Below, piece by piece: positions 7,932 through 29,055 of a stretch of DNA of 64,000 nt. The stretch covers positions 1 through 64,000 of the forward strand of contig JAIOQA010000070.1 in NCBI GenBank assembly GCA_021413675.1, given 5' to 3'. Numbering within the stretch: position 1 is the stretch's first letter; each line of letters opens with the position of its first letter. Under the pieces are notes generated by a model. It was not told the DNA's origin. It ran no database searches and saw only the letters and a program-made list of their open reading frames with translations. Both the position numbers and the translations under genes were made by a program. This stretch comes from Deltaproteobacteria bacterium (lineage in GTDB: Bacteria > Myxococcota_A > Polyangia > Haliangiales > Haliangiaceae).

Positions 7932-10900
7932 CTACTGGCCAAGCAGGACTATCAGGCCATCCGAGTTCGTGCTCGCGACGGCCAGATCGAGCCTGCCGTC
8001 ACCATTGAGATCCCCGACCGCGACGGCGTAAGGCGAAAACCCGGCCCCGTAGTCGACCTTTGGCGCAAAGGTCGGGGCCGTTGCGCCCTGAAGTGTCGAG
8101 GAGAGAAAGACCGAGACCGTGCCAGCGTTCGAGTTCGTGTCCACAAAATCGAGCTTCCCATCGCCGTTGAGGTCGCCCAACGCCACCGATGAAGGATTGA
8201 GGTCTGCCGTGAAGTTGACCACCGGAGAGTAACTCGGCGCAGCGGCACCGCTCGCGGTCGTGCTCATGAATACTGAGACCTGGTCGAAGCCGTAGTTGTG
8301 GTCACCGGCGTTCGGATCGGGGTTATTGTTTGCGACCACCAGATCAGGTGCACCGTCCCGGTTGATGTCGCCAACCGCAACGGAGATCGGAGATACGCCT
8401 GCGGTAAAATAGACCTGCATCGAGAACGTCGGCACCGCCGCCCCGGGGGCCGTGGTATTGAGCCGAACGGAAGCACCGCTGTAGCCAGCAAAGGCGAGGT
8501 CGACCTTGCCATCCTGATTGAGGTCGCTCAGGACAACCGATTCGGTCTCCCACAACGATGGGAAGTCGACCTTTGCCGCGAAGCTCGGCATGGAAGCGCC
8601 GTTCGATGCCGTATTGAGAAGGACAGACGTGCTCCGCAACGACGCGCTGACTCCGTCGCTAGCCACCGCGAGATCAAGCCTCCCATCACCGTTGATATCA
8701 CCAATGGCGACAGATGCCGGCTGGGGACCACCCGGGAAGTCGACCTTAGCCGAGAAGGTGGGCACTAGCGCCCCGCCCGCGGTGGTGTTCAGAAAGACTG
8801 ACACGCTCGCGGCGGTCCGATTCGCAACTGCGATGTCGGGCTTCCCGTCGCCGTTGAGGTCACCAATCGCGAGCGCGTAGGAGGAAGGCCCACTCGGGAA
8901 GTCAACCTTGGGCGCGAAGGTAGGCGTTGTCGCGCCAGTCGCGGTCGTTCCCAGCAACACCGAGATATAGGTGGAGCATGCAAGTACGACGTCGGGCTTG
9001 CCATCGCTATTGAGATCGCCCACCGCAACTGCGTACGAACATAGTCCCGCGAAGCTGACTTGCGGTCGAAAGGTCCCCGTCGACGAAACCAGCTTGGTTG
9101 CCGTGAACGTGATCGGCGATCCTGTGAGCACCGGCGCAGTCGCGGTCACGGTGTTCAGGCCTGCCGACGCGCCGAGCGTCAGCGTCGTTTGTGCCAGGCC
9201 CTGCGCGTTGGTCTGGACCGTCGTGGCAGACAGGCTACCGCCGCCCGATGCGACAGCGAACGACACCGTGACGCCCGGCACCGGATTCCACGCGGCGTCT
9301 CGCACGGTCACGACGAACGGCGAGGCAAGCGCCGTACTGACAACGCCGGCCTGATTGTCGCCGGCGGTCCGCACGAGCGTGAGCGCCCCGCGGTCGACCA
9401 CCGTCACGGCGATCGCCTTCGTGCCGAGTGCCGCGTTGGACACCGAGATCGTCGCCGAGTCGTCGGTTGCGTTCGCATCCTCGACGCCGGTGACGTTGAT
9501 GATCTGGCCCGTGGCATAGTTGCTCGAGTCGAGGGTGACGCTGGCGGGCGTGACGGTCACCGCACCGGTGTTGTTCGAGCCGATGGTGATCGTCGTCGGC
9601 GCGGTCGGGATGAACGCCAGCGAGACTTTGACGCTGCTGTTGGTCGTCCCCTCCGGCACCGTCAACGCATTCGCGCTCACCTGCAGCGCCTGCATATCAT
9701 CGTCGACGACATTGGCAGTCACATCCGGAATGCTGCCGATCGCCGCGGAGGCCATCTTGATGGCCACGGTCTCGTTGACCAGGTCCTGGTCCGCGACCCC
9801 GTTCAGCGTGACCGGCTGGTAGGTGCTCCAGTTCGCCGACGTGAACGTCAGGCTCGGAGTCCCCACGGTCACGGCGCCGGTATCGCTCGACGTGATCGAG
9901 ATGACGACGTTGTTGCCGACGGTGGGCTGCGCCGTCAGCTTGACCTGGAACTGGCCGGTTCCGGCCTCGCCGAGACTGACAGACGTGAAGTCCGTCGCGA
10001 CCCCGAGCACATCGTCATCGATGACGGTCACCCCGATCGAGGCGCTCGAGGCTCCGGCGGTCGCCGAGATGACGGCCGCCCCGTTCGTCGTGTTCGCGTC
10101 CTGGACGCCCGTGATCGTGATCGGCTTGCCCGTCGCGTAGTTGGTCGCGTCGAGAGAGATGGTCGCGGGCGTGACCGAGGCGACAGTGGAATCGCTCGAG
10201 GCGACGGAGACCATCGTGGCGGCCGTCGGGATGAACTTCAGCGTGACCTTGATGGTGCCGTCGCTGGCGCCCTCGCCCACGGTCAGCGTCGGCGCGCTGA
10301 CCTGGACGACCTGTGTATCGTCGTCGGTGACGTTCGCGGTCACGTCCGGGATGCTGGCGATCGCCGCCGACGTTAGCTTGATCGCCACGGTCTCGTTCAC
10401 GAGATCCTGATCGGCGACGCCGTTGAGAATGACGGGCTGGTAGGCGTTCCAGTTCGCAGAGGTGAAGGTCAGGCTGGTGGTCGCAGCGCTGACCGTCACG
10501 GCACCGACGTCGCTGGACGCGATCGCCACGACAACGTTGTTGCCGGCAGCCGGCTGCGCGGTCAGGCGCACCTGGAACTGGGCGCTGCCGCCCTCGCTGA
10601 AACTGACCGAGGAGAGATCCGTGACCACGCCGAGGACGTCGTCGTCGATCACCGTGACCGCCACGCTCGCGCTCGCGGCCCCCGCCGCAGCCGTGATCGT
10701 CGCGGCGGCGTTCGCGGCATCGGCATCCTGCACGCCGGTCACGTTCACGTTCGAACCCGTGGCGTAGTTCGTCGCGTCGAGGACGACACTGGCGGGCGAC
10801 ACGGTCGCTCCGGCCGTGTTGTTCGACGTCAGCGTGATCGTCGTCGGCGCGGACGGAACGTACTTGAGTGACACCGTGAACGAGCCCGTCGTCCCCTCGG

Positions 10901-13900
10901 TGATGTTCAGCGTGTTCGCGCTCACCAGCACGACCTGCGTGTCGTCGTCGGTGACCGTCGCGGTGACGTTCTGGGTGGTGACCAGCGCGTTGGTCAGCGC
11001 GATCGTCACGGTCTCGTCGGCGAGGTCGAGGTCGCCGACGCCGGACACGGTGACGGTCTGGAAGGTGTTCCAGTTGGCGGTGGTGAACGGCAGGGTCGCG
11101 GGCGCGACGGTCGCCGCGCCGGTGTCGCTCGAGCCGACGGCGACGCTGAGGTTGGCCGAGGGCTGGGCGCTGAGCTTGACCTGGAACGTGGCCGTGCCGG
11201 CCTCGCCGAGCGAGACGGCGGAGGCGGTCGTGATGATGCCGAGGGTGTCGTCGTCGAGGACCGTCAAGGCGACGGTCTTCATCGGCAGGGCGCCGCTCGT
11301 GAGCGTCAGCGTGACGCTCTCGTTGGCGACGTCGGGGTCGTTGACGCCGGCGATGTTCGCGTCCTGGAAGACGTTCCAGTTGGCAGTCGTGAAGGTCAGC
11401 GAGCCGGTGACGGTGGCGGCGCCGGTGTCGCTCGACGCGATGCTCACGACCGTGGTGCCGGCCGGCTGCGCGGTGAGCCGCACGCTGACCTTGCCGGTGC
11501 CGGCCTCGCCGACCGTGAGGGAACCGACCGAGGTCTCGATGCCGAGGATGTCGTCGTCGGTGACGTTGACGGTGACGGTCGCGGGCGTCGCGCCGGCGGC
11601 GGTCAGGGACAGCGAGGTCGCGCCGTTGGCCGCGTCCGCGTCCTGCGTGCCGGTGACCGACACGGTCTGGGCGACGGCGTAGTTGGCGGGCGTGAAGGTC
11701 AGCGAGCCCGGCGATGCGGTCGCGACCGCGCCATCGGCGGAGGCGACCGACACGACCACGTTGCCCGCCGGCATGTACTGCAGCGACACGCCGAGCGTGT
11801 TGATGGTGCTGCCCTCGGTGACGGTCACCGCGGAAGCGGACGCGACCACGACCTGCGTGTCGTTGTCGGTGACGGTCGCGGTCACCAGGCGGTTCGGGAA
11901 GCCGGCGCTGGCCAGGGTCATCGTCACGGTCTCGTCGGCGAGATCGACGTCCTGCGCGCCGGTGATCGTCACGGTCTGGTAGACGTTCCAGTTCGCGGTC
12001 GTGAACATCAGCGTCGCCGGCGCGACGGTCGCCGCGCCGGTGTCGCCCGAGGTCACGGTGACGTTGGTGGTCGCGGCCGGCTGCGCCGCGAGCCGGACCT
12101 GGAACGTGCCGGTCGCGCCCTCGGTGAGGGTCACGGCGGTCACGTCGGTGACGATGCCGAGGATCTCGTCATCGACGACGGCGACCGCGATCGGCAGCGA
12201 GGTCAGGCCGGTGCTCGCGGCGGTGATCGTCACGCTCTCGTCGGCGGCGTCGGCGTCCTGCACGCCGGTGATGGTGACGTTCTGGTAGGTGTGCCAGTTG
12301 ACGGTCGTGAACGTCAGCGTCGGCTGCGCGGTCAAGCGCACGCCGACGGTGCCGGTCGCGCCCTCGCCGATGCTGAGGCTGGGCACGCTGGCCTCGAGCC
12401 CGAGGTGATCGATGTCGGTGACGGTGACGGCCACGGTGCGCGTGGCGAGGCCGGCCGAGGTCAGCGACACGGTCGTCGATTCGTCGACCGCGTCGGCGTC
12501 GATGACGCCGCCGATGGTCACGAGCTGCGGCGTGGCGTAGTTCGCCGAAGTGAAGGTCAGGGTCGCGGGCGCCGCGGTCGCGACGGCGGGATCCGCCGAG
12601 GCGACGGTGACGGTGACGTCGGAGGTCGGCATGAACTGCAGCGACACGCCGACCGTGCCGGTGCTGCCCTCGCTCACGGTGAGCGTCGCGGCGCTGAGCA
12701 CGGTACCCTGGGCGTCGTCGTCGTTGACCGTCGCGGTCACGACCTTGACCGGCAGCCCGCTGGCGGTGAGGGTGAGGGACAGCGACTCGTCATTGAGGTC
12801 CACGTCCTGGACGCCAGTGACCGTGACGGTCTGCGCGACGTTCCAGTTGCTGGTCGTGAAGCTCAGGGTCGCAGGCGACGGGGTGGCCGCGCCGAGATCC
12901 GAGGACACCACGCCGACCATCACGCCGGCGGGCGGCTGCGCGCCGAGCTGCACGGTGAACGTGGCGGTGCCGTTCTCGGCCAGCGTCACCGCGCTGACCG
13001 AGGTCTCGATCGTGAGGTGATCGTCGTCGGCCACGGCGACCGGGACGTTGGTCAAGAGCCCGGCGGCGACCGACTCGAGCCGCAAGGTCGTGCTGCCGGG
13101 CGCGGCGTCCGCATCGTCGGGCGCCATCAGCGTGAGCACCTGATCGCTCGAGTAGTTCGAGGCGGTGAACGTGAGCTGCGCCGTGCCGACGGTCGCGACC
13201 GCGGTGTCGAGGCTCGAGACCGCGACGACCACGTCGCTCGCCGGCTTGAACGCGAGGTGGACGTTGACGGTGGTGGTCCCGTTCTCGGTCATGCCGACCG
13301 TGCCGGGCGTGGCGACGATCAGCTGGGTGTCGTCGTCGTTGACCGCGACCGAGATCGTGCGCGTCGTCAGGCCGGTCGCGGTCAGCGTCACCGAGGTCGT
13401 CTCGTTGGCGGTGTCGGCGTCCTGGGGCGCGTCGACCGTCACGGTCTGCGCGACGTTCCAGTTGCTGGTCGTGAAGGTCAGCATCGTCGGCGTGGCAGCG
13501 GCGGCGCCGGGATCGACCGAGGCGACCGTCACCGTCGTGGTGGCGGTCGGCTGCTGGGTGAGCGCCACGCCGAACGTCATCGAGGCGCCCTCGGTCAGCG
13601 TGAGCGCGGTCGTGGTCGGCTGGATGCTGACCTGATCCTTGTCGACGACCTGGACCGGCACCGAGACGTTGGTGAGCGCGGCCGAGGTGAAGGTGACGTT
13701 GGCGGTGTCGGTGACGACGTTGGCGTCGGGCACGCCGCTCACGGTCACGGTCTGATCGACGTTCCAGTTGCCGGTCGTGAACGTCAGCGTGGCGGGCGTG
13801 ACCGTCGCGACCGCGAGGTTGTCGGAGGCGACATCGACGGTGACGTCGGAGGTCGGCTGCGCGGTCAAGTGCACGGCGAGCGGCGCGCTCGCGCCCTCGG

Positions 13901-14387
13901 TGACGTCGAGGCTCGCGGGCGACACCCGGACCGCGAGGCCGTCGTCGTCATCGACGGTGACCGCGACCGTCACCGTCGGCGCGTCGTCGGACGACAGCGT
14001 GATCGTCACGTTCTCGTCGACGGTGTCGGCGTCCTGCTTCGCGGGCAGCATCACCGCGTGCGGCGTGTTCCAGTTGGCGGTGCTGAACAACAGCGCCGTC
14101 GTGGTCACGCCGAGCTTGGTGTCGTCGGACGTGGCGACGTTGACCAGCACGCCGGCCGCGGTCGGCGGCGCCGCCGAGAGCGTGACCGTGAACATGCCGG
14201 TCGTGCCCTCGGCGACGGTCAGCGCGGTCGTCGACGGGACGATCGCGAGGGGACCGGTGGTGGCGTCGGCGCTGGCGTCGACGCCCGCGTCGGCCTTGCC
14301 GCCGTCCTCACCGGTGAACGTGACGCCCTGGACGGAGCAGGCGCTCCCCAGCGTGATGATCGCGATGATCCCGAGAAACCTGCGCAT
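7932..14387 (-). CDS. Giant surface lipoprotein: 16 Calx-beta-like repeats, Ig-like domain, FG-GAP propeller
   Basis: 2,151 residues from the ATG at 14387, preceded by GATGAGG at good spacing. Signal MRRFLGIIAIITLGSAC ends in lipobox GSAC and is followed by an Asp/Ala linker. Sixteen tandem repeats of about 105 residues follow, each opening with a variant of (L/V)TEG..G.F.V.L.AQP, containing T(L)TFT..NWN..Q.VTV.G..D.D, and closing with V.DDD, as in Calx-beta (Ca-binding) domains. Next is one bacterial Ig-like domain (about 1,650-1,760), then seven VCBS/FG-GAP units (YAVAVGDLNSDGKPD and relatives), enough for a seven-bladed integrin-alpha-like propeller whose DxNxDGxxD loops bind calcium. It probably acts in adhesion or contact-dependent surface functions. 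The downstream flank is the IS21 wreck. Confidence 0.9.
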   Translation of the reverse strand: MRRFLGIIAIITLGSACSVQGVTFTGEDGGKADAGVDASADATTGPLAIVPSTTALTVAEGTTGMFTVTLSAAPPTAAGVLVNVATSDDTKLGVTTTALLFSTANWNTPHAVMLPAKQDADTVDENVTITLSSDDAPTVTVAVTVDDDDGLAVRVSPASLDVTEGASAPLAVHLTAQPTSDVTVDVASDNLAVATVTPATLTFTTGNWNVDQTVTVSGVPDANVVTDTANVTFTSAALTNVSVPVQVVDKDQVSIQPTTTALTLTEGASMTFGVALTQQPTATTTVTVASVDPGAAAATPTMLTFTTSNWNVAQTVTVDAPQDADTANETTSVTLTATGLTTRTISVAVNDDDTQLIVATPGTVGMTENGTTTVNVHLAFKPASDVVVAVSSLDTAVATVGTAQLTFTASNYSSDQVLTLMAPDDADAAPGSTTLRLESVAAGLLTNVPVAVADDDHLTIETSVSAVTLAENGTATFTVQLGAQPPAGVMVGVVSSDLGAATPSPATLSFTTSNWNVAQTVTVTGVQDVDLNDESLSLTLTASGLPVKVVTATVNDDDAQGTVLSAATLTVSEGSTGTVGVSLQFMPTSDVTVTVASADPAVATAAPATLTFTSANYATPQLVTIGGVIDADAVDESTTVSLTSAGLATRTVAVTVTDIDHLGLEASVPSLSIGEGATGTVGVRLTAQPTLTFTTVNWHTYQNVTITGVQDADAADESVTITAASTGLTSLPIAVAVVDDEILGIVTDVTAVTLTEGATGTFQVRLAAQPAATTNVTVTSGDTGAATVAPATLMFTTANWNVYQTVTITGAQDVDLADETVTMTLASAGFPNRLVTATVTDNDTQVVVASASAVTVTEGSTINTLGVSLQYMPAGNVVVSVASADGAVATASPGSLTFTPANYAVAQTVSVTGTQDADAANGATSLSLTAAGATPATVTVNVTDDDILGIETSVGSLTVGEAGTGKVSVRLTAQPAGTTVVSIASSDTGAATVTGSLTFTTANWNVFQDANIAGVNDPDVANESVTLTLTSGALPMKTVALTVLDDDTLGIITTASAVSLGEAGTATFQVKLSAQPSANLSVAVGSSDTGAATVAPATLPFTTANWNTFQTVTVSGVGDLDLADETVTIALTNALVTTQNVTATVTDDDTQVVLVSANTLNITEGTTGSFTVSLKYVPSAPTTITLTSNNTAGATVSPASVVLDATNYATGSNVNVTGVQDADAANAAATITAAAGAASASVAVTVIDDDVLGVVTDLSSVSFSEGGSAQFQVRLTAQPAAGNNVVVAIASSDVGAVTVSAATTSLTFTSANWNAYQPVILNGVADQDLVNETVAIKLTSAAIASIPDVTANVTDDDTQVVQVSAPTLTVGEGASDGTIKVTLKFIPTAATMVSVASSDSTVASVTPATISLDATNYATGKPITITGVQDANTTNGAAVISATAGASSASIGVTVIDDDVLGVATDFTSVSLGEAGTGQFQVKLTAQPTVGNNVVISITSSDTGAVTVGTPSLTFTSANWSTYQPVTLNGVADQDLVNETVAIKMASAAIGSIPDVTANVVDDDMQALQVSANALTVPEGTTNSSVKVSLAFIPTAPTTITIGSNNTGAVTVTPASVTLDSSNYATGQIINVTGVEDANATDDSATISVSNAALGTKAIAVTVVDRGALTLVRTAGDNQAGVVSTALASPFVVTVRDAAWNPVPGVTVSFAVASGGGSLSATTVQTNAQGLAQTTLTLGASAGLNTVTATAPVLTGSPITFTATKLVSSTGTFRPQVSFAGLCSYAVAVGDLNSDGKPDVVLACSTYISVLLGTTATGATTPTFAPKVDFPSGPSSYALAIGDLNGDGKPDIAVANRTAASVSVFLNTTAGGALVPTFSAKVDFPGGPQPASVAIGDINGDGRLDLAVASDGVSASLRSTSVLLNTASNGASMPSFAAKVDFPSLWETESVVLSDLNQDGKVDLAFAGYSGASVRLNTTAPGAAVPTFSMQVYFTAGVSPISVAVGDINRDGAPDLVVANNNPDPNAGDHNYGFDQVSVFMSTTASGAAAPSYSPVVNFTADLNPSSVALGDLNGDGKLDFVDTNSNAGTVSVFLSSTLQGATAPTFAPKVDYGAGFSPYAVAVGDLNGDGRLDLAVASTNSDGLIVLLGQ

Positions 14388-14593
14388 CAAGACCTCATCA
14401 TCGAATCGAAACCAGACGACCCACCAACGCCGGCGAGGACCAGACCCTGCCCCGCACGACGCACCCCGAGGGCACGACGCGGAACGAGCAGGCAATCGAG
14501 CAATCCCCCCACCGACAACCTCTCCACGGTATCACGGCGTACGTGGTCGCCGTCGCGAGAAGGCGCGGTGCGCGCGGCGCAAAACGTGCGCGG

Positions 14594-20939: not shown

Positions 20940-21743
20940 TCACTTCGCGCGGAGCGTGAGGGAAGGACAGCGATCGCCCAGCTCGTAGGCCGGGACGCGG
21001 CATGCGGTCTCGACCAGCGCGTCGCCGAGCGCGGCGCGGGTCTCATCGAGGGTCGGGAACGCGTAGACCCGGGCCGAGTCGCGATATGCGTCGATCGTGG
21101 CGATCTCCGCCGCGGGCCATCCCGTCGCGCGCGCGAGCGCCGCGCGATCCGGCACGAGCGCCGCGAACGCCTCCCAGATCGCGGCGACGCGCACGTTGCG
21201 ATCGTCGGGCGCGACCGCCATCGCGAGCCGCCACTTGAAGGCGTGGAAGCTGCCGATCGCGCCGGCGGCGAGCGCGTCGGCGACCGCGCCCAGCGCTTCG
21301 CGCACCGGCGGCGAGACGAACAGCCGCGTGACCAGCGCGCCGCCGGGCGCGAGCACGCGGCCGAGCTCGCGCGCGAACGCGCGGTAGCCGTCGGGGAACG
21401 CGAGGTTGGGCAGGCAGCCGTCGCCGAGCGCGACGTCGATCGCGGCCGCGCGCAGCGGCAGCGCGCGCCAGTCGGCGACCACCGCGCGGCGATCGGGCGT
21501 GGCCGTGAACAGCGCGCCGATCATCGCGGGCGCGCGATCGATCGCGGTCAGCGCGGTGCCCGCGGGCCACGCCAGGGTCGCGAGCTCCGGCGTCACGCCG
21601 AGCAGGAGCGCGCGCGGCGCGCGGCGGTGAGCCGCGGTCCAGGCGGCGAGCTCCGCGGTCGCGATCGCGACGTCGGCGGCGCACGGCCGCAGGGGCGGCC
21701 CGACGAGCGCCCACTGCCGGGCGTGCAGCGACCAGTGATCCAT
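20940..21743 (-). CDS. Class I SAM-dependent methyltransferase
   Basis: 267 residues, cytoplasmic. The fold signature is readable: ALLLGVTPELATLAWP (motif I, with Gly-poor LLGVTPE instead of GxGxG), LTAIDRAP (acidic end of strand 2), VVADWRALPL (motif II), IDVALGDGCLPNL (strand 4) and LGRVLAPGGALVTRLF (post-motif with the APGG turn). It resembles UbiE/Type-11 methyltransferases with a weak motif I. The substrate is unknown. It diverges from the PaaK-like gene with only 11-29 bases between starts, so the two share a promoter region. The RiPP-like precursor further along makes a modification role conceivable, but that is only inference. Confidence 0.82.
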   Translation of the reverse strand: MDHWSLHARQWALVGPPLRPCAADVAIATAELAAWTAAHRRAPRALLLGVTPELATLAWPAGTALTAIDRAPAMIGALFTATPDRRAVVADWRALPLRAAAIDVALGDGCLPNLAFPDGYRAFARELGRVLAPGGALVTRLFVSPPVREALGAVADALAAGAIGSFHAFKWRLAMAVAPDDRNVRVAAIWEAFAALVPDRAALARATGWPAAEIATIDAYRDSARVYAFPTLDETRAALGDALVETACRVPAYELGDRCPSLTLRAK

Positions 21744-21772
21744 GCGAGTCGCGCATGGTAAACGATTTGCCC

Positions 21773-23098
21773 ATGACCGTGACCCCGCGCTCGAGCGTTC
21801 CCGGGATCGCGTGGCCGGCGCTGCCCGACCCGCGCACCGCGATGCTGCTCGCGCTCGGCTGGCAGCTCGACCGCAGCCAGTGGTGGACCGAGGCCGACCT
21901 GCGCGCGCACCAGCGCGAGCAACTCGCGGTCCTGCTCGCCCACGCCGCGACCACGGTGCCGGCCTATCGCGGGCTCGATCCGCGCGCCTGGGATCGCGTG
22001 CCGATCCTCGAGCGCGAGGCGCTGATCGCCGCCGGCGACGCGATGCTGTCGAAGGGCTACCCCGCGGCCCACGGCCCGGTCGACGAGGTCACGACCTCGC
22101 GCACCAGCGGCACGCCGGTGCGCGTGCGCGCGAGCGGCATCGTCTCCACGTTCTGGCACGCGCTCACGCTGCGCGAGCACGTGTGGCACGTCCGCGATCT
22201 CGCCGCGCACCTCGCGGTGATCCGCCACGTCGACACGCCGGCGCCCGCGCCCGATGGCCTGCGCCTGCGCGGCTGGGGCGCGGCGACCGCGGCGCTCGCG
22301 CCGGACGCGCCGCTGTCGGTGCTGTCGGTGACGACCACGACCGACGAGCAGCTCGCGTGGCTCGCCCACGTCGCGCCCGACTACTTGCTGGTCTATCCCA
22401 GCGTGCTCGACGCGATCCTGCGCCGGATGGCGGCGACGGGCGCGAAGCTGCCGTCCGTGCGCGGCGTCCGCACGATCAGCGAGGTGCTCGCGCCCGCGAC
22501 CCGCGCGCTGTGCACCGAGGTGCTCGGCGTGCCGATCGTCGACACCTACTCGGCGCAGGAGGTCGGCTACATCGCGCTGCAGTGCCCCGATCACCCGCAC
22601 TACCACGTGCAGAGCGAGCGCCTGCTGGTCGAGATCCTCGACGAGCGCGGCGCGCCGTGCGCGGTCGGCGAGACCGGGCGCGTGGTGATCACCGATCTGC
22701 ACAACTTCGCGACGCCGCTGTTGCGCTACGCGATCGGCGACTACGCCACCGTCGGCGCGCCCTGCCCGTGCGGCCGCGGGCTGCCGGTGCTCACGCGGAT
22801 CATCGGGCGGCGCCGCAACATGCTGACGTATCCCGACGGTCGCACGGTCTGGCCGGTGTTCACCGTCGCGTGTCGCCAGGCCGCGCGCTACCGCGAGATC
22901 CAGCTGGTGCAGCCGACCCGCGAGTCCTTGCGCCTGCGGGTCGTGCCCGAGGGCGCGCTCGCGGCCGACGCGCCGGCCGCGCTGACCGCCGCGCTGCAGC
23001 GCGTGTTCGATCACCCGTTCGCGGTCGAGATCGAGATCGTCGACGCGCTCGCGCGCAGCCCGGTCGGCAAGCTCGAGGAGTTCGTGTCGCTCGTCTGA
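21773..23098 (+). CDS. PaaK-like adenylate-forming enzyme (phenylacetate-CoA ligase family)
   Basis: About 441 residues (a start at 21755 would add 6). It has the phosphate-binding loop TTSRTSGTPV, the IVDTYSAQEVGYIALQC segment matching the PaaK/CoF390-synthetase motif, GRVVITDLHNFATPLLRY, and the hinge region IGDYATVG with a PCPCGRGLP Cys pair. The C-terminal GRRRNMLTYPDGRTVWP leads into the mobile domain ending SPVGKLEEF, where Lys is the usual catalytic residue. It activates a carboxylic acid with ATP, and perhaps forms a CoA thioester; the acid is unknown. It is followed 129 bases later by a small lanthipeptide-like precursor on the same strand. Confidence 0.85.
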   Translation: MTVTPRSSVPGIAWPALPDPRTAMLLALGWQLDRSQWWTEADLRAHQREQLAVLLAHAATTVPAYRGLDPRAWDRVPILEREALIAAGDAMLSKGYPAAHGPVDEVTTSRTSGTPVRVRASGIVSTFWHALTLREHVWHVRDLAAHLAVIRHVDTPAPAPDGLRLRGWGAATAALAPDAPLSVLSVTTTTDEQLAWLAHVAPDYLLVYPSVLDAILRRMAATGAKLPSVRGVRTISEVLAPATRALCTEVLGVPIVDTYSAQEVGYIALQCPDHPHYHVQSERLLVEILDERGAPCAVGETGRVVITDLHNFATPLLRYAIGDYATVGAPCPCGRGLPVLTRIIGRRRNMLTYPDGRTVWPVFTVACRQAARYREIQLVQPTRESLRLRVVPEGALAADAPAALTAALQRVFDHPFAVEIEIVDALARSPVGKLEEFVSLV

Positions 23099-23198: not shown

Positions 23199-23227
23199 AA
23201 CTGGGCCGCTCTGAAAGGACCCGTGTC

Positions 23228-23377
23228 ATGAAGAAGCTCACCGAGAAGAAGCCGATCAGCCTGCAGACCGAGACCGTCCGCGTCCTCCGCGATGGCCAGA
23301 TCGAGCTGGTGGTCGGCGGCCGCGGCAGCGCCACCGTCGGCGGCTCGTGTCGCGACAACACGACCTGCTGCAAGTGA
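23228..23377 (+). CDS. Lanthipeptide-like RiPP precursor peptide, 49 residues
   Basis: ATG at 23228 with a good ribosome-binding site (GAAAGGAC, 23213-23220). The leader (1-31) is basic at the start (MKKLTEKKP), then has the amphipathic ETVRVLRDGQIELVVGG ending in a double glycine, like leaders of class I lanthipeptides and other GG-cleaved peptides. The core (32-49) is Ser/Thr/Cys-rich: Ser34, Thr36, Ser40, Cys41, Thr45, Thr46, Cys47, Cys48, with a second GG at 38-39. Three Cys and five Ser/Thr could form up to three thioether rings; disulphides are the alternative. No LanB/LanC/LanM or peptidase-transporter gene is in the window, so maturation would have to be in trans or by unknown enzymes. 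It ends 3 bases from the convergent kinase gene. Confidence 0.72.
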   Translation: MKKLTEKKPISLQTETVRVLRDGQIELVVGGRGSATVGGSCRDNTTCCK

Positions 23378-23380
23378 CCG

Positions 23381-25090
<1,710 letters not shown>

Positions 25091-26036: not shown

Positions 26037-26286
26037 GAGACTCCTTTGACCGCGTTGCGACGCGGACGCCGGGCGAAATTGCAAGCAGCGGGCCCACCAC
26101 GGCCCGGCCGCTTGGCCGAGCGATCTCGAGCATCTGCGGCAGTCTTTCACGCGGTGGTCCGGGCTGGCGTCGCAACCGAGACGGCGGTGAGCGAGACGCG
26201 TCTCGCTCGCTGTCGCGCGATCGCGCGCGGCGGTCCGCCGCGATACGCTCGGTGTGCGACGACCGCGTTTCCCACCGAGGCACTCC

Positions 26287-27132
26287 ATGGACCGATCTGC
26301 CCTCCTCCCTCGCGCCGCTGCGCTCGGGTTCGCCCTCCTGCTCGGCTGCGGCGGCGCCGCGAAGCCCGCCGCGCGCGCCGGCACCGGGGACGGCAGCTGC
26401 GCCGACGCCGCCGCGGCGATCGACGCGCGCACCCACGGCGGCTCGCTGATCGCGCTGACCGACGCGCTCGCGCCGCTCGCGCCGTTCTACGCCACGCTCG
26501 AGGGCGAGATCGTGAACGCGTGCAGCGAGGGCTCCTGGTCCGCCGACGTGCGGGCGTGCATGGTCGCCGCGACCAGCGACGCCGAGCTGCGGACCTGCGA
26601 GGACAAGCTCTCGCTCGCGCAGCGTCGCACGCTCGCCGCGCGCGTCGCGCGCGTCATCGATCAGCGCACCGCCACCGACCTGCGCGACGAGATGTGCGCG
26701 TGCACCAACGCCGACTGCGCGACGGCGGTGTCGGCCAAGGTCGAGCGCTTCGGCAAGGCCAGCGAGGCGCGCTACCCGAAGCCGACGGACGCCCCCGCAG
26801 GGCTGAACCAGGCGATGGGCGTGCTCGCGGCGTGCGAGCAGCGCTTCGGCGGCGGCGACGAGGTGTGGGGCGCGGTCGAGGGCGACAGCCTCACCGGCGT
26901 CGCCGAGTGCGACCGCTTCCTCGATCTGCAGGATCGGTACTTCGCGTGCGACAAGGTCCCGCAGCAGGCCAAGGACGCGATGAAGCAGGCGATGGATCAG
27001 CAGAAGCAGGCGTGGGCGATGCTCCGCGATCCCAACGTTCCCGAGGAGGCCAAGCGCGCCGCGGCCGACGGCTGCAAGCAGGGCGGCGACGCGCTCCGGC
27101 AGTCGGCGGCGGCGATGGGCTGCTCGCTGTAG
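26287..27132 (+). CDS. Lipoprotein, first of three tandem paralogues
   Basis: 281 residues from ATG 26287. The signal MDRSALLPRAAALGFALLLGC gives lipobox LLGC. The mature part is helical with scattered Cys (EIVNACSEG, VRACMVAA, MCACTNADC, LAACEQRF). A C-terminal block, AECDRFLDLQDRYFACDKVP followed by QQAKDAMKQAMDQQ, is shared with the next two genes. It ends in a short Cys-terminated tail (AMGCSL). Function unknown; the conserved block and even Cys pattern suggest a disulphide-stabilised helical periplasmic protein. Confidence 0.75.
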   Translation: MDRSALLPRAAALGFALLLGCGGAAKPAARAGTGDGSCADAAAAIDARTHGGSLIALTDALAPLAPFYATLEGEIVNACSEGSWSADVRACMVAATSDAELRTCEDKLSLAQRRTLAARVARVIDQRTATDLRDEMCACTNADCATAVSAKVERFGKASEARYPKPTDAPAGLNQAMGVLAACEQRFGGGDEVWGAVEGDSLTGVAECDRFLDLQDRYFACDKVPQQAKDAMKQAMDQQKQAWAMLRDPNVPEEAKRAAADGCKQGGDALRQSAAAMGCSL

Positions 27133-27272: not shown

Positions 27273-28142
27273 ATGTTCACGCCCCGCCGCTCGTTGATCG
27301 CCGCCCTCCTGATGATCGTTCCCGCGTGTGGCGCGACCGCGAAGCCCGCGCCGCCCCGCCCCGCCACCTGTGAGGCGGTCGCCGCCGCGGTCGCCGTGCA
27401 GCTGCACGACGATGCGTTCGCCGCGCTGACGAAGCCCGCCGCCGCGCCCGACGCGTTCGCACGGTCGCTCGCCGCGCAGGTCGGCGCCTCGTGCGCGACC
27501 GACGCATGGCCGCTCGCGACCCGGCAGTGTCTGGTCGATGCGACCGACGACGCGGGCATCACGGGCTGCGCCGTCACCGCCGACCAGCGCGCTCATCTCG
27601 CCGCGGCGATCGAGCCGCTCGCCGATCAACACGCCATCGAGGCGCTGCGCGATCAGGTATGCGCGTGCACGACCCGCGCCTGCGCGGATGAGGCCATCGG
27701 CGCTGCGGACCGACTGAGCCAGCATCTCGGCGGGAAGTACCCGCGCCCGGTCGACGTCCCTGCGCCGATCTGGGACGCGCTGAACGCCACGGCCACCTGC
27801 ACGAACCGCATCGAAGGCGACGGCGGCTCGACGGCGGACACCTCGTCGAATGCGGACGACGGGACGACCGACTGGGCGGCCCTCCGCTCCGGTGGCTCGG
27901 TCGGGGTGCGCGCGTGCGATCGCTTCCTCGTCCTGCAGGATCGGTACTTCGCGTGCGACAAGGTCCCGCAGCAGGCCAAGGACGCGATGAAGCAGTCGAT
28001 GGATCAGCAGGAGCAAGCGTGGTCGATGCTCAAGGACCCCGGCATCCCCGAAGAGGCGAAGCGGGCCGCCGGCGACGGATGTCGTGCCGGCGCCGATGCG
28101 CTGATCCAGTCGGCCGCCGTGATGGGCTGCTCGCTCCTCTGA
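27273..28142 (+). CDS. Lipoprotein, second of three tandem paralogues
   Basis: 289 residues, ATG at 27273. Signal MFTPRRSLIAALLMIVPAC (lipobox VPAC). The start of the mature protein (GATAKPAPPRPATCEAVAAA) is nearly identical to that of the third copy, while its C-terminal block (ACDRFLVLQDRYFACDKVPQ) matches the first copy almost base for base (about 27930-27990 against 26921-26981). Cys pairs at CACTTRAC and the C-terminal MGCSLL follow the family pattern. Function unknown. Confidence 0.75.
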   Translation: MFTPRRSLIAALLMIVPACGATAKPAPPRPATCEAVAAAVAVQLHDDAFAALTKPAAAPDAFARSLAAQVGASCATDAWPLATRQCLVDATDDAGITGCAVTADQRAHLAAAIEPLADQHAIEALRDQVCACTTRACADEAIGAADRLSQHLGGKYPRPVDVPAPIWDALNATATCTNRIEGDGGSTADTSSNADDGTTDWAALRSGGSVGVRACDRFLVLQDRYFACDKVPQQAKDAMKQSMDQQEQAWSMLKDPGIPEEAKRAAGDGCRAGADALIQSAAVMGCSLL

Positions 28143-28173: not shown

Positions 28174-29055
28174 ATGCAGACGTTCGCGCCCCGCCGCTGC
28201 TCGATGATCGCGGCCCCCCTGCTGGCGATCGCCGCCTGTGGCGCGACCGCGAAGCCCGCGCCGCCGCGCCCCTCCACCTGCGATGCGGTCGCGGCTGCGG
28301 TAGCCGTGCAGCTGCACGACGAGGCGTTCGCCGCGCTGGCGAAGCCCGCTGCCGCGCCCGATGCGTTCGCGCGGTCGCTCGCCTCGCTGGTCGGCACCGC
28401 GTGCACCGCCGATGCGTGGCCACTCGCAACCCGCCAGTGCCTCGTCGACGCGGCGGACGACGCCGCGATCGCCGCCTGCCCGCTCACCGCCGAGCAGCGC
28501 ACACGGCTCGGCACGGCGATCACGCCGCTCGCGGATCAGCACGCGGCCGAGACGCTTCGCGACCGGGTGTGCGCGTGCACGAGCCGCGACTGTGTGCAGG
28601 CGGCCTTTCGCGACGTGGAGCCGTGGGGCAAGCACCTCGACGCGACGTACAAGGGCCCGGACGAGGTCCCGGCGGCCCTCAGGACCGCGATGACGGAGCT
28701 CGCACACTGCGCGGACCGCCGGTCGCACGACCGCCGCGCGACCGCGCCGCGCCCGCGCCACCACCCGGACGACGGGACGACCGACTGGGCGGCGCTGCTC
28801 CCTGGCGGCACGCTCGGTGTGCGCGCATGCGATCGCTTCCTCGTGCTGCAGGAACGATACATCGCGTGCGACAAGGTCCCGCCGCAGGCCAGGAGCGTCA
28901 TGCGGCAGTCCATCGAACAGCAGCGCCAGGAGTGGTCGATGCTCGAGCGCCCGGACGTCTCGGCCGAGGAGCTCGCAGCGGCCGGCGACAGCTGCATCGC
29001 GGGCACCGACGCGCTCCTCGAGTCGGCCGAAGCGATGGGTTGCCCGCTGGAGTGA
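28174..29055 (+). CDS. Lipoprotein, third of three tandem paralogues
   Basis: 293 residues, ATG at 28174, 31 bases after the previous stop. Signal MQTFAPRRCSMIAAPLLAIAAC (lipobox IAAC); an internal ATG at 28204 would still leave a working signal. It shares GATAKPAPPRPSTCDAVAAA with copy two but has a more diverged C-terminal block (ACDRFLVLQERYIACDKVPP). Function unknown. The three genes run head to tail and are probably one transcript. Confidence 0.75.
   Translation: MQTFAPRRCSMIAAPLLAIAACGATAKPAPPRPSTCDAVAAAVAVQLHDEAFAALAKPAAAPDAFARSLASLVGTACTADAWPLATRQCLVDAADDAAIAACPLTAEQRTRLGTAITPLADQHAAETLRDRVCACTSRDCVQAAFRDVEPWGKHLDATYKGPDEVPAALRTAMTELAHCADRRSHDRRATAPRPRHHPDDGTTDWAALLPGGTLGVRACDRFLVLQERYIACDKVPPQARSVMRQSIEQQRQEWSMLERPDVSAEELAAAGDSCIAGTDALLESAEAMGCPLE

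Follow-up and report, generated by a model that had tools for sequence, protein, structure and literature searches.

The gene of interest lies at positions 23228..23377 on the forward strand of the window, by which we mean the whole 64-kb stretch of DNA that was analysed. Its 49-residue product, MKKLTEKKPISLQTETVRVLRDGQIELVVGGRGSATVGGSCRDNTTCCK, is a predicted LanA, a lanthipeptide precursor of class I type, as judged from the open reading frame, the leader profile and ~41 paralogues. It divides into a leader, MKKLTEKKPISLQTETVRVLRDGQIELVVGG (23228..23320), delimited by an alignment of 38 leaders and a weak NF038153 match and carrying the motif (L/I)xLxxxTVRxL...GG, and a core of 18 residues, RGSATVGGSCRDNTTCCK (23321..23374), with three Cys and five Ser/Thr. 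The GG of the leader corresponds to residues 30-31. A second GG within the core (VGG/SCRDNTTCCK) offers an alternative cleavage site, and the cut at the first GG is favoured because it agrees with the leader length of the family. An earlier sequence-only reading of this DNA had described the peptide, its GG leader and the composition of its core, and both coordinates and description hold. The same reading spoke of a strong ribosome-binding site; the region at 23206..23227, on the same strand, does contain GAAAGGA, with AAAGGA placed a few bases 5' of the ATG, but this is a plausible site and not an exceptional one. Directly 3' of the gene a terminator-like hairpin was found on the forward strand (23394..23415), formed by a 9-pair stem followed by the T-run GCGCTTTTTG, and it shares sequence with the 3' end of the kinase gene, which is convergent. 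Terminator-like sites numbered 2 in 451 bases, one per strand, against a mean of 0.1 in shuffles. Taking into account the ribosome-binding site and the hairpin of its own, the gene probably needs nothing from its neighbours. A promoter consensus was looked for at the gene and was not found, and the Pfam search of the peptide gave zero matches.

The frame was then compared with leader profiles. A profile built from the leaders of the 41 paralogues, leaving out the window peptide, was scanned against the 1551 small-ORF starts of the 64-kb window and matched only the precursor frame (E 5.9e-10, the next best being 4.6). A second profile, from precursors of other genomes, matched the same frame with E 3e-9; these two results are partly circular, since both sets were gathered starting from the window peptide. 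When the profile was restricted to the eight precursors that neighbour a LanB in other genomes, the frame was again ranked first, weakly (E 0.09), in a profile too thin for significance. Among the NCBIfam models the two best for the window peptide were NF038153 (lant_leader_L1a) and TIGR04149 (rSAM-modified RiPP). The first, a model of the class I lanthipeptide leader, came top with 15.5 bits and E 0.014, below its curated cut-off of 22 bits, and this is the outcome of the leader profile search that had been recommended; the second reached 13.3 bits, against a curated cut-off of 25 bits. Judging from these matches, the 23228-23377 frame is more than a chance ORF.

The genes beside it are as they had been described: a PaaK-like ligase on the forward strand, a divergent methyltransferase on the reverse strand and a membrane Ser/Thr kinase, also on the reverse strand. 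The methyltransferase and the ligase (20940-23098) form a divergent pair conserved in the family, in the genomes G003 (Myxococcales bacterium PRO3, WYBA01000406.1), G007 and G014, where tblastn gave identities of 60-64% for the ligase and 57-60% for the methyltransferase. The nearest NCBIfam models, both below cut-off, are DVU_1553 for the ligase and DVU_1556 for the methyltransferase, and two betaproteobacterial records (L141 and L142) also have the two genes side by side, on one strand. Elsewhere in the window, at 26254-27132, about 27300-28142 and 28174-29055 on the forward strand, there are tandem paralogous proteins, secreted or lipoprotein-like, that share the C-terminal CDRFLxLQxRYxACDKVPxQA, the first of them without a Pfam match; and at 7932-14495, on the reverse strand, a protein of 2187 residues shows by eye many Calx-beta-like repeats and C-terminal FG-GAP-like repeats.

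Considering that the genes are physically adjacent, that the ligase lies on the strand of the precursor and that ligase and methyltransferase are a real conserved pair, it could be thought that these two enzymes, perhaps with the kinase, form a dedicated and undescribed modification system for the peptide, as the sequence-only reading had put forward. However, no precursor-like peptide was found in the 12-14 kb around the pair in G003, G007 and G014, nor was there any peptide beside the distant proteobacterial homologues of the ligase. G007 and G014 had no LanB and no leader match at all; G003 has a LanB and four precursors, none of which is located at the ligase-methyltransferase site. It had been proposed to check the recurrence of the whole set in related genomes, and what recurs in these three is the ligase and the methyltransferase, with the peptide absent. 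At the 35 other precursor loci there were no homologues of the window ligase or methyltransferase. Kinases were near ~10 of the 36 precursor loci, with 9.7 expected when all 337 candidates are counted as kinases, and near 5, with 4.7 expected, when only the best 151 scored are taken, that is to say, at background frequency. Since the pair is conserved without the peptide and kinases occur at background frequency, a neighbour-based modification system is unsupported, and we consider it extremely improbable. From this gene content, the ligase, the methyltransferase and the kinase are, by all appearances, unrelated bystanders.

The other possibility that had been raised was maturation in trans. 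It had been noted that the window lacks a synthetase, peptidase or exporter, which agrees with our search of the whole 64 kb, in which homologues of LanB, LanC and the C39 transporter (LanT) were looked for and not found. The search for LanB and LanC elsewhere in the genome, suggested by the same reading, gave one strong LanB and six canonical LanCs. The LanB is split over the ends of two contigs (C98 and C245): Lant_dehydr_N (PF04738) covers model positions 1-327 at the end of C98 and 327-644 at the start of C245, where it is followed by Lant_dehydr_C (PF14028), the elimination domain. Aligned with the intact LanB of G003, the C98 half covers residues 8-415 and the C245 half 415-1107; they abut along it, which indicates one LanB gene cut by the assembly. 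After LanB, contig C245 carries in this order a GAF-HlyD protein, a C39-peptidase ABC transporter, an HlyD adaptor and a LanC, beyond which there are two precursors on the opposite strand. The genome encodes ten LANC_like proteins. The six canonical ones, on contigs C245, C456, C448, C540, C289 and C129, show both motifs, WC[YS]G and CHG, and every one of them has precursors next to it. The remaining LANC_like proteins, on C75, C94, C194 and C214, were not counted as lanthipeptide LanCs, as their loci are precursor-free and the motifs are missing or show a WCHG variant; those of C194 and C214 (L029 and L030), with WCHG plus CHG motifs and no nearby precursor, probably stand outside the lanthipeptide system. 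At the retrieved precursor loci other than C245 there was neither LanB nor C39 transporter, and an ABC match on C424 was discarded as a general ABC ATPase.

What is expected of a class I system was found in this genome: a LanB with both Lant_dehydr_N and Lant_dehydr_C domains in one gene, separate LanCs (six proteins) with the motifs of the Cys-Cys-His zinc site, and a precursor with a leader and a Ser/Thr/Cys core. LanB and LanC do not cluster with the window precursor; such clustering is usual rather than defining for class I lanthipeptides, and it is seen for other paralogues on C245 (LanB plus LanC) and on C456 and C448 (LanC). For ~34 of the 42 precursors, the window one included, the retrieved flanks have no LanC or LanB. 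Because the assembly is fragmented (564 contigs, 92% complete, 10.78 Mb), a LanB closer to the window gene, or a second one, could have escaped it.

With the window peptide as the sole query, seven close paralogues were retrieved from its own genome, and the profile made from these eight sequences revealed dozens more. In total, by profile search and by reading ORFs singly, ~42 precursors with a common leader were found on ~36 loci, in counts that rest on the profile searches of contigs plus the retrieved loci. The gene had been called an orphan, which is true of its place but not of the family, with its ~41 paralogues in the genome. The consensus of the 38 aligned leaders is MKKxxxxKKLxLxxxTVRxLxxxxLxxVAGG. 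Nearly all 42 precursors start with MK or MN and contain (L/I)xLxxxT(V/I/L)xxL, and the leader ends in GG in 32 of the 42 and in a near variant in nearly all of the others. The cores are mutually unrelated: mean pairwise identity was 0.415 for the leaders and 0.238 for the cores, hardly above the 0.218 of shuffled cores. Across the 42 paralogues, 0.08% of the residues of the leader are Cys, compared with 11.6% in the core. Cys is absent from two cores, those of L055/L148 (C460) and L066/L154 (C196), which combine family leaders with long Gly/Ser/Thr repeats; having zero Cys in the core, these two could be dehydrated, with no lanthionine possible. An RBS-like word was present at up to 20 nt upstream in 21 of the 42. 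As for a common promoter, the motif search upstream of the 42 precursors was discarded, since only GC-rich words were enriched, and sigma-54-like sites were seen upstream of three, unconvincingly. Next to the LanB operon, and at several loci of precursors or LanCs, there are sigma-54 activators, FHA-domain or other (L022 8746-10500 on C245; L025 about 1130-2647 on C456; L023 3399-4856 on C98; L074 2982-4529 on C429), and a common regulator is possible.

It could be argued that the peptide gives rise not to a lanthipeptide but to a different RiPP with a GG leader, such as a radical SAM-modified one of the TIGR04149 type. The weak match to that model, 13.3 bits and shared with six of the 42 paralogues, is consistent with this, as are the two Cys-free cores. 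On the other hand, NF038153 matches 23 of the 42 paralogues at E <= 0.1 (best E 1.7e-9), Cys is present in 40 of the 42 cores, and the gene families that recur at three or more precursor loci are LanC, general kinases, FHA/sigma-54 regulators and acyl-CoA dehydrogenases, no other enzyme family being widely repeated beside the precursors. The co-occurrence of the leader with LanB and LanC is also near complete. In a set of 36 genomes, LanB was found in 10 of the 11 leader-positive and 3 of the 25 leader-negative genomes (Fisher p 1.1e-5), and LanC in 11 of 11 and 1 of 25, respectively (p 2e-8); class-wide, over 290 genomes, LanB was in 17 of 18 leader-positive genomes and in 50 of the 272 others (p 4e-11). 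These p-values are optimistic, since related genomes are treated as independent. The genomes without LanB and LanC served as a natural negative control for the leader profile, and in the set of 36 they gave zero matches. A different RiPP class is consequently judged improbable.

The arrangement of the precursors differs among the relatives. They lie on the LanB contig itself in G015, G016, G017, G018 and G020, and they are dispersed and expanded in the host genome (G000, with 42), in G157 (at least 14), which belongs to the same family as the host and has more than one LanB-like gene, and in G026, of another family of the same order, with a smaller dispersed set of nine. No orthologue of the exact window peptide was seen in the genome sets searched, in which the host is the sole member of its genus, and the syntenic site of the relatives is without one, so the window copy would be young or lineage-specific. 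That empty site, together with the promoter consensus that was not found, would also fit a duplicate, now decaying or silent, of a precursor that was functional in the past. Upon decay, losses would be expected in the frame, the RBS, the GG site or the Cys-rich core, yet all of these are intact, and the leader score of the window copy ranks with the best of the family; a decayed copy seems very improbable to us.

Taken together, these results make it very probable that the product of the window gene is a class I lanthipeptide precursor and belongs to a set of ~42 that are dispersed in the genome and matured in trans. Maturation in trans, which the sequence-only reading had offered as one of two options, is strongly supported by the LanB, the six LanCs, the C39-peptidase ABC transporter and the ~42 same-leader precursors. 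The steps that follow are deduced from how the genes are organised and from the biochemistry of class I lanthipeptides. The single LanB would bind the (L/I)xLxxxTVRxL element of the leader and would use glutamyl-tRNA chemistry to dehydrate Ser/Thr in the core. Closure of (methyl)lanthionine rings, on as many as three Cys, would then fall to one of the six LanCs. Finally, the C39 domain would cleave after Gly-Gly and the ABC transporter would export the product. As to function, the likeliest class is a library of secreted and diversified peptides serving competition or signalling.

With regard to the whole set, scattered precursors, a common leader, unrelated cores and one LanB were found, as in a dispersed library. 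It is likely, with less assurance than for the window gene itself, that one LanB dehydrates the ~42 unrelated dispersed cores and that the six LanCs share the cyclisation, which would be a class I counterpart of the prochlorosins. In the literature accessible without subscription, we found neither a dispersed library of class I precursors nor any description of this family from Myxococcota. One paper, cited elsewhere, is said to describe a myxobacterial lanthipeptide. Since dispersed libraries are known for class II and none was found for class I, the genome-wide dispersed class I arrangement looks new, provisionally, and the peptide itself belongs to a known kind. If the proposal is true, one class I dehydratase works on dozens of unrelated natural substrates via one leader, and it would have a value for peptide engineering like that of ProcM, with glutamyl-tRNA chemistry and with separable, mix-and-match cyclases. 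Cluster-based mining, which needs the precursor near the enzymes, would miss ~34 of the 42 products here. The specificity of each LanC for the adjoining precursor, and which LanC serves the orphans, would become directly testable questions.

By comparison with known systems, the window peptide is closest in its leader to the class I precursors of Bacteroidetes, which have an LxLxKx5L leader, often with a Gly-Gly end, and C39 proteases nearby (Walker et al. 2020, PMC7268733). The spacing is the same as in these precursors and in NF038153, here I10-x-L12-x-T14-x5-L20 with Thr replacing Lys, and the Gly-Gly end, the separate LanB and LanC enzymes and the C39 peptidase are also shared; in contrast, the ~42 precursors are here dispersed, away from LanB, in a myxobacterial host, and the window peptide falls below the cut-off of NF038153. 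For lanthipeptides generally, maturation proteases are known that are unclustered and encoded elsewhere in the genome (PMC8960859). The likeness is that one step of maturation comes from another part of the genome; there the unclustered gene is that of the protease, whereas here the precursor lies apart from dehydratase, cyclase and transporter alike. The prochlorosins and synechococsins of marine picocyanobacteria, which are class II, have scattered precursors served by one synthetase, ProcM or SyncM (PMC10783134). Many scattered precursors, a conserved Gly-Gly leader, hypervariable Cys-rich cores and a distant enzyme are common to both systems. The class II system is characterised by LanM/ProcM and a Nif11-type leader, which does not describe the present one: the leader is of another type, unrelated to the Nif11 family, the dehydratase found is a LanB, with separate LanCs in place of the bifunctional LanM, and several LanCs are local to precursors.
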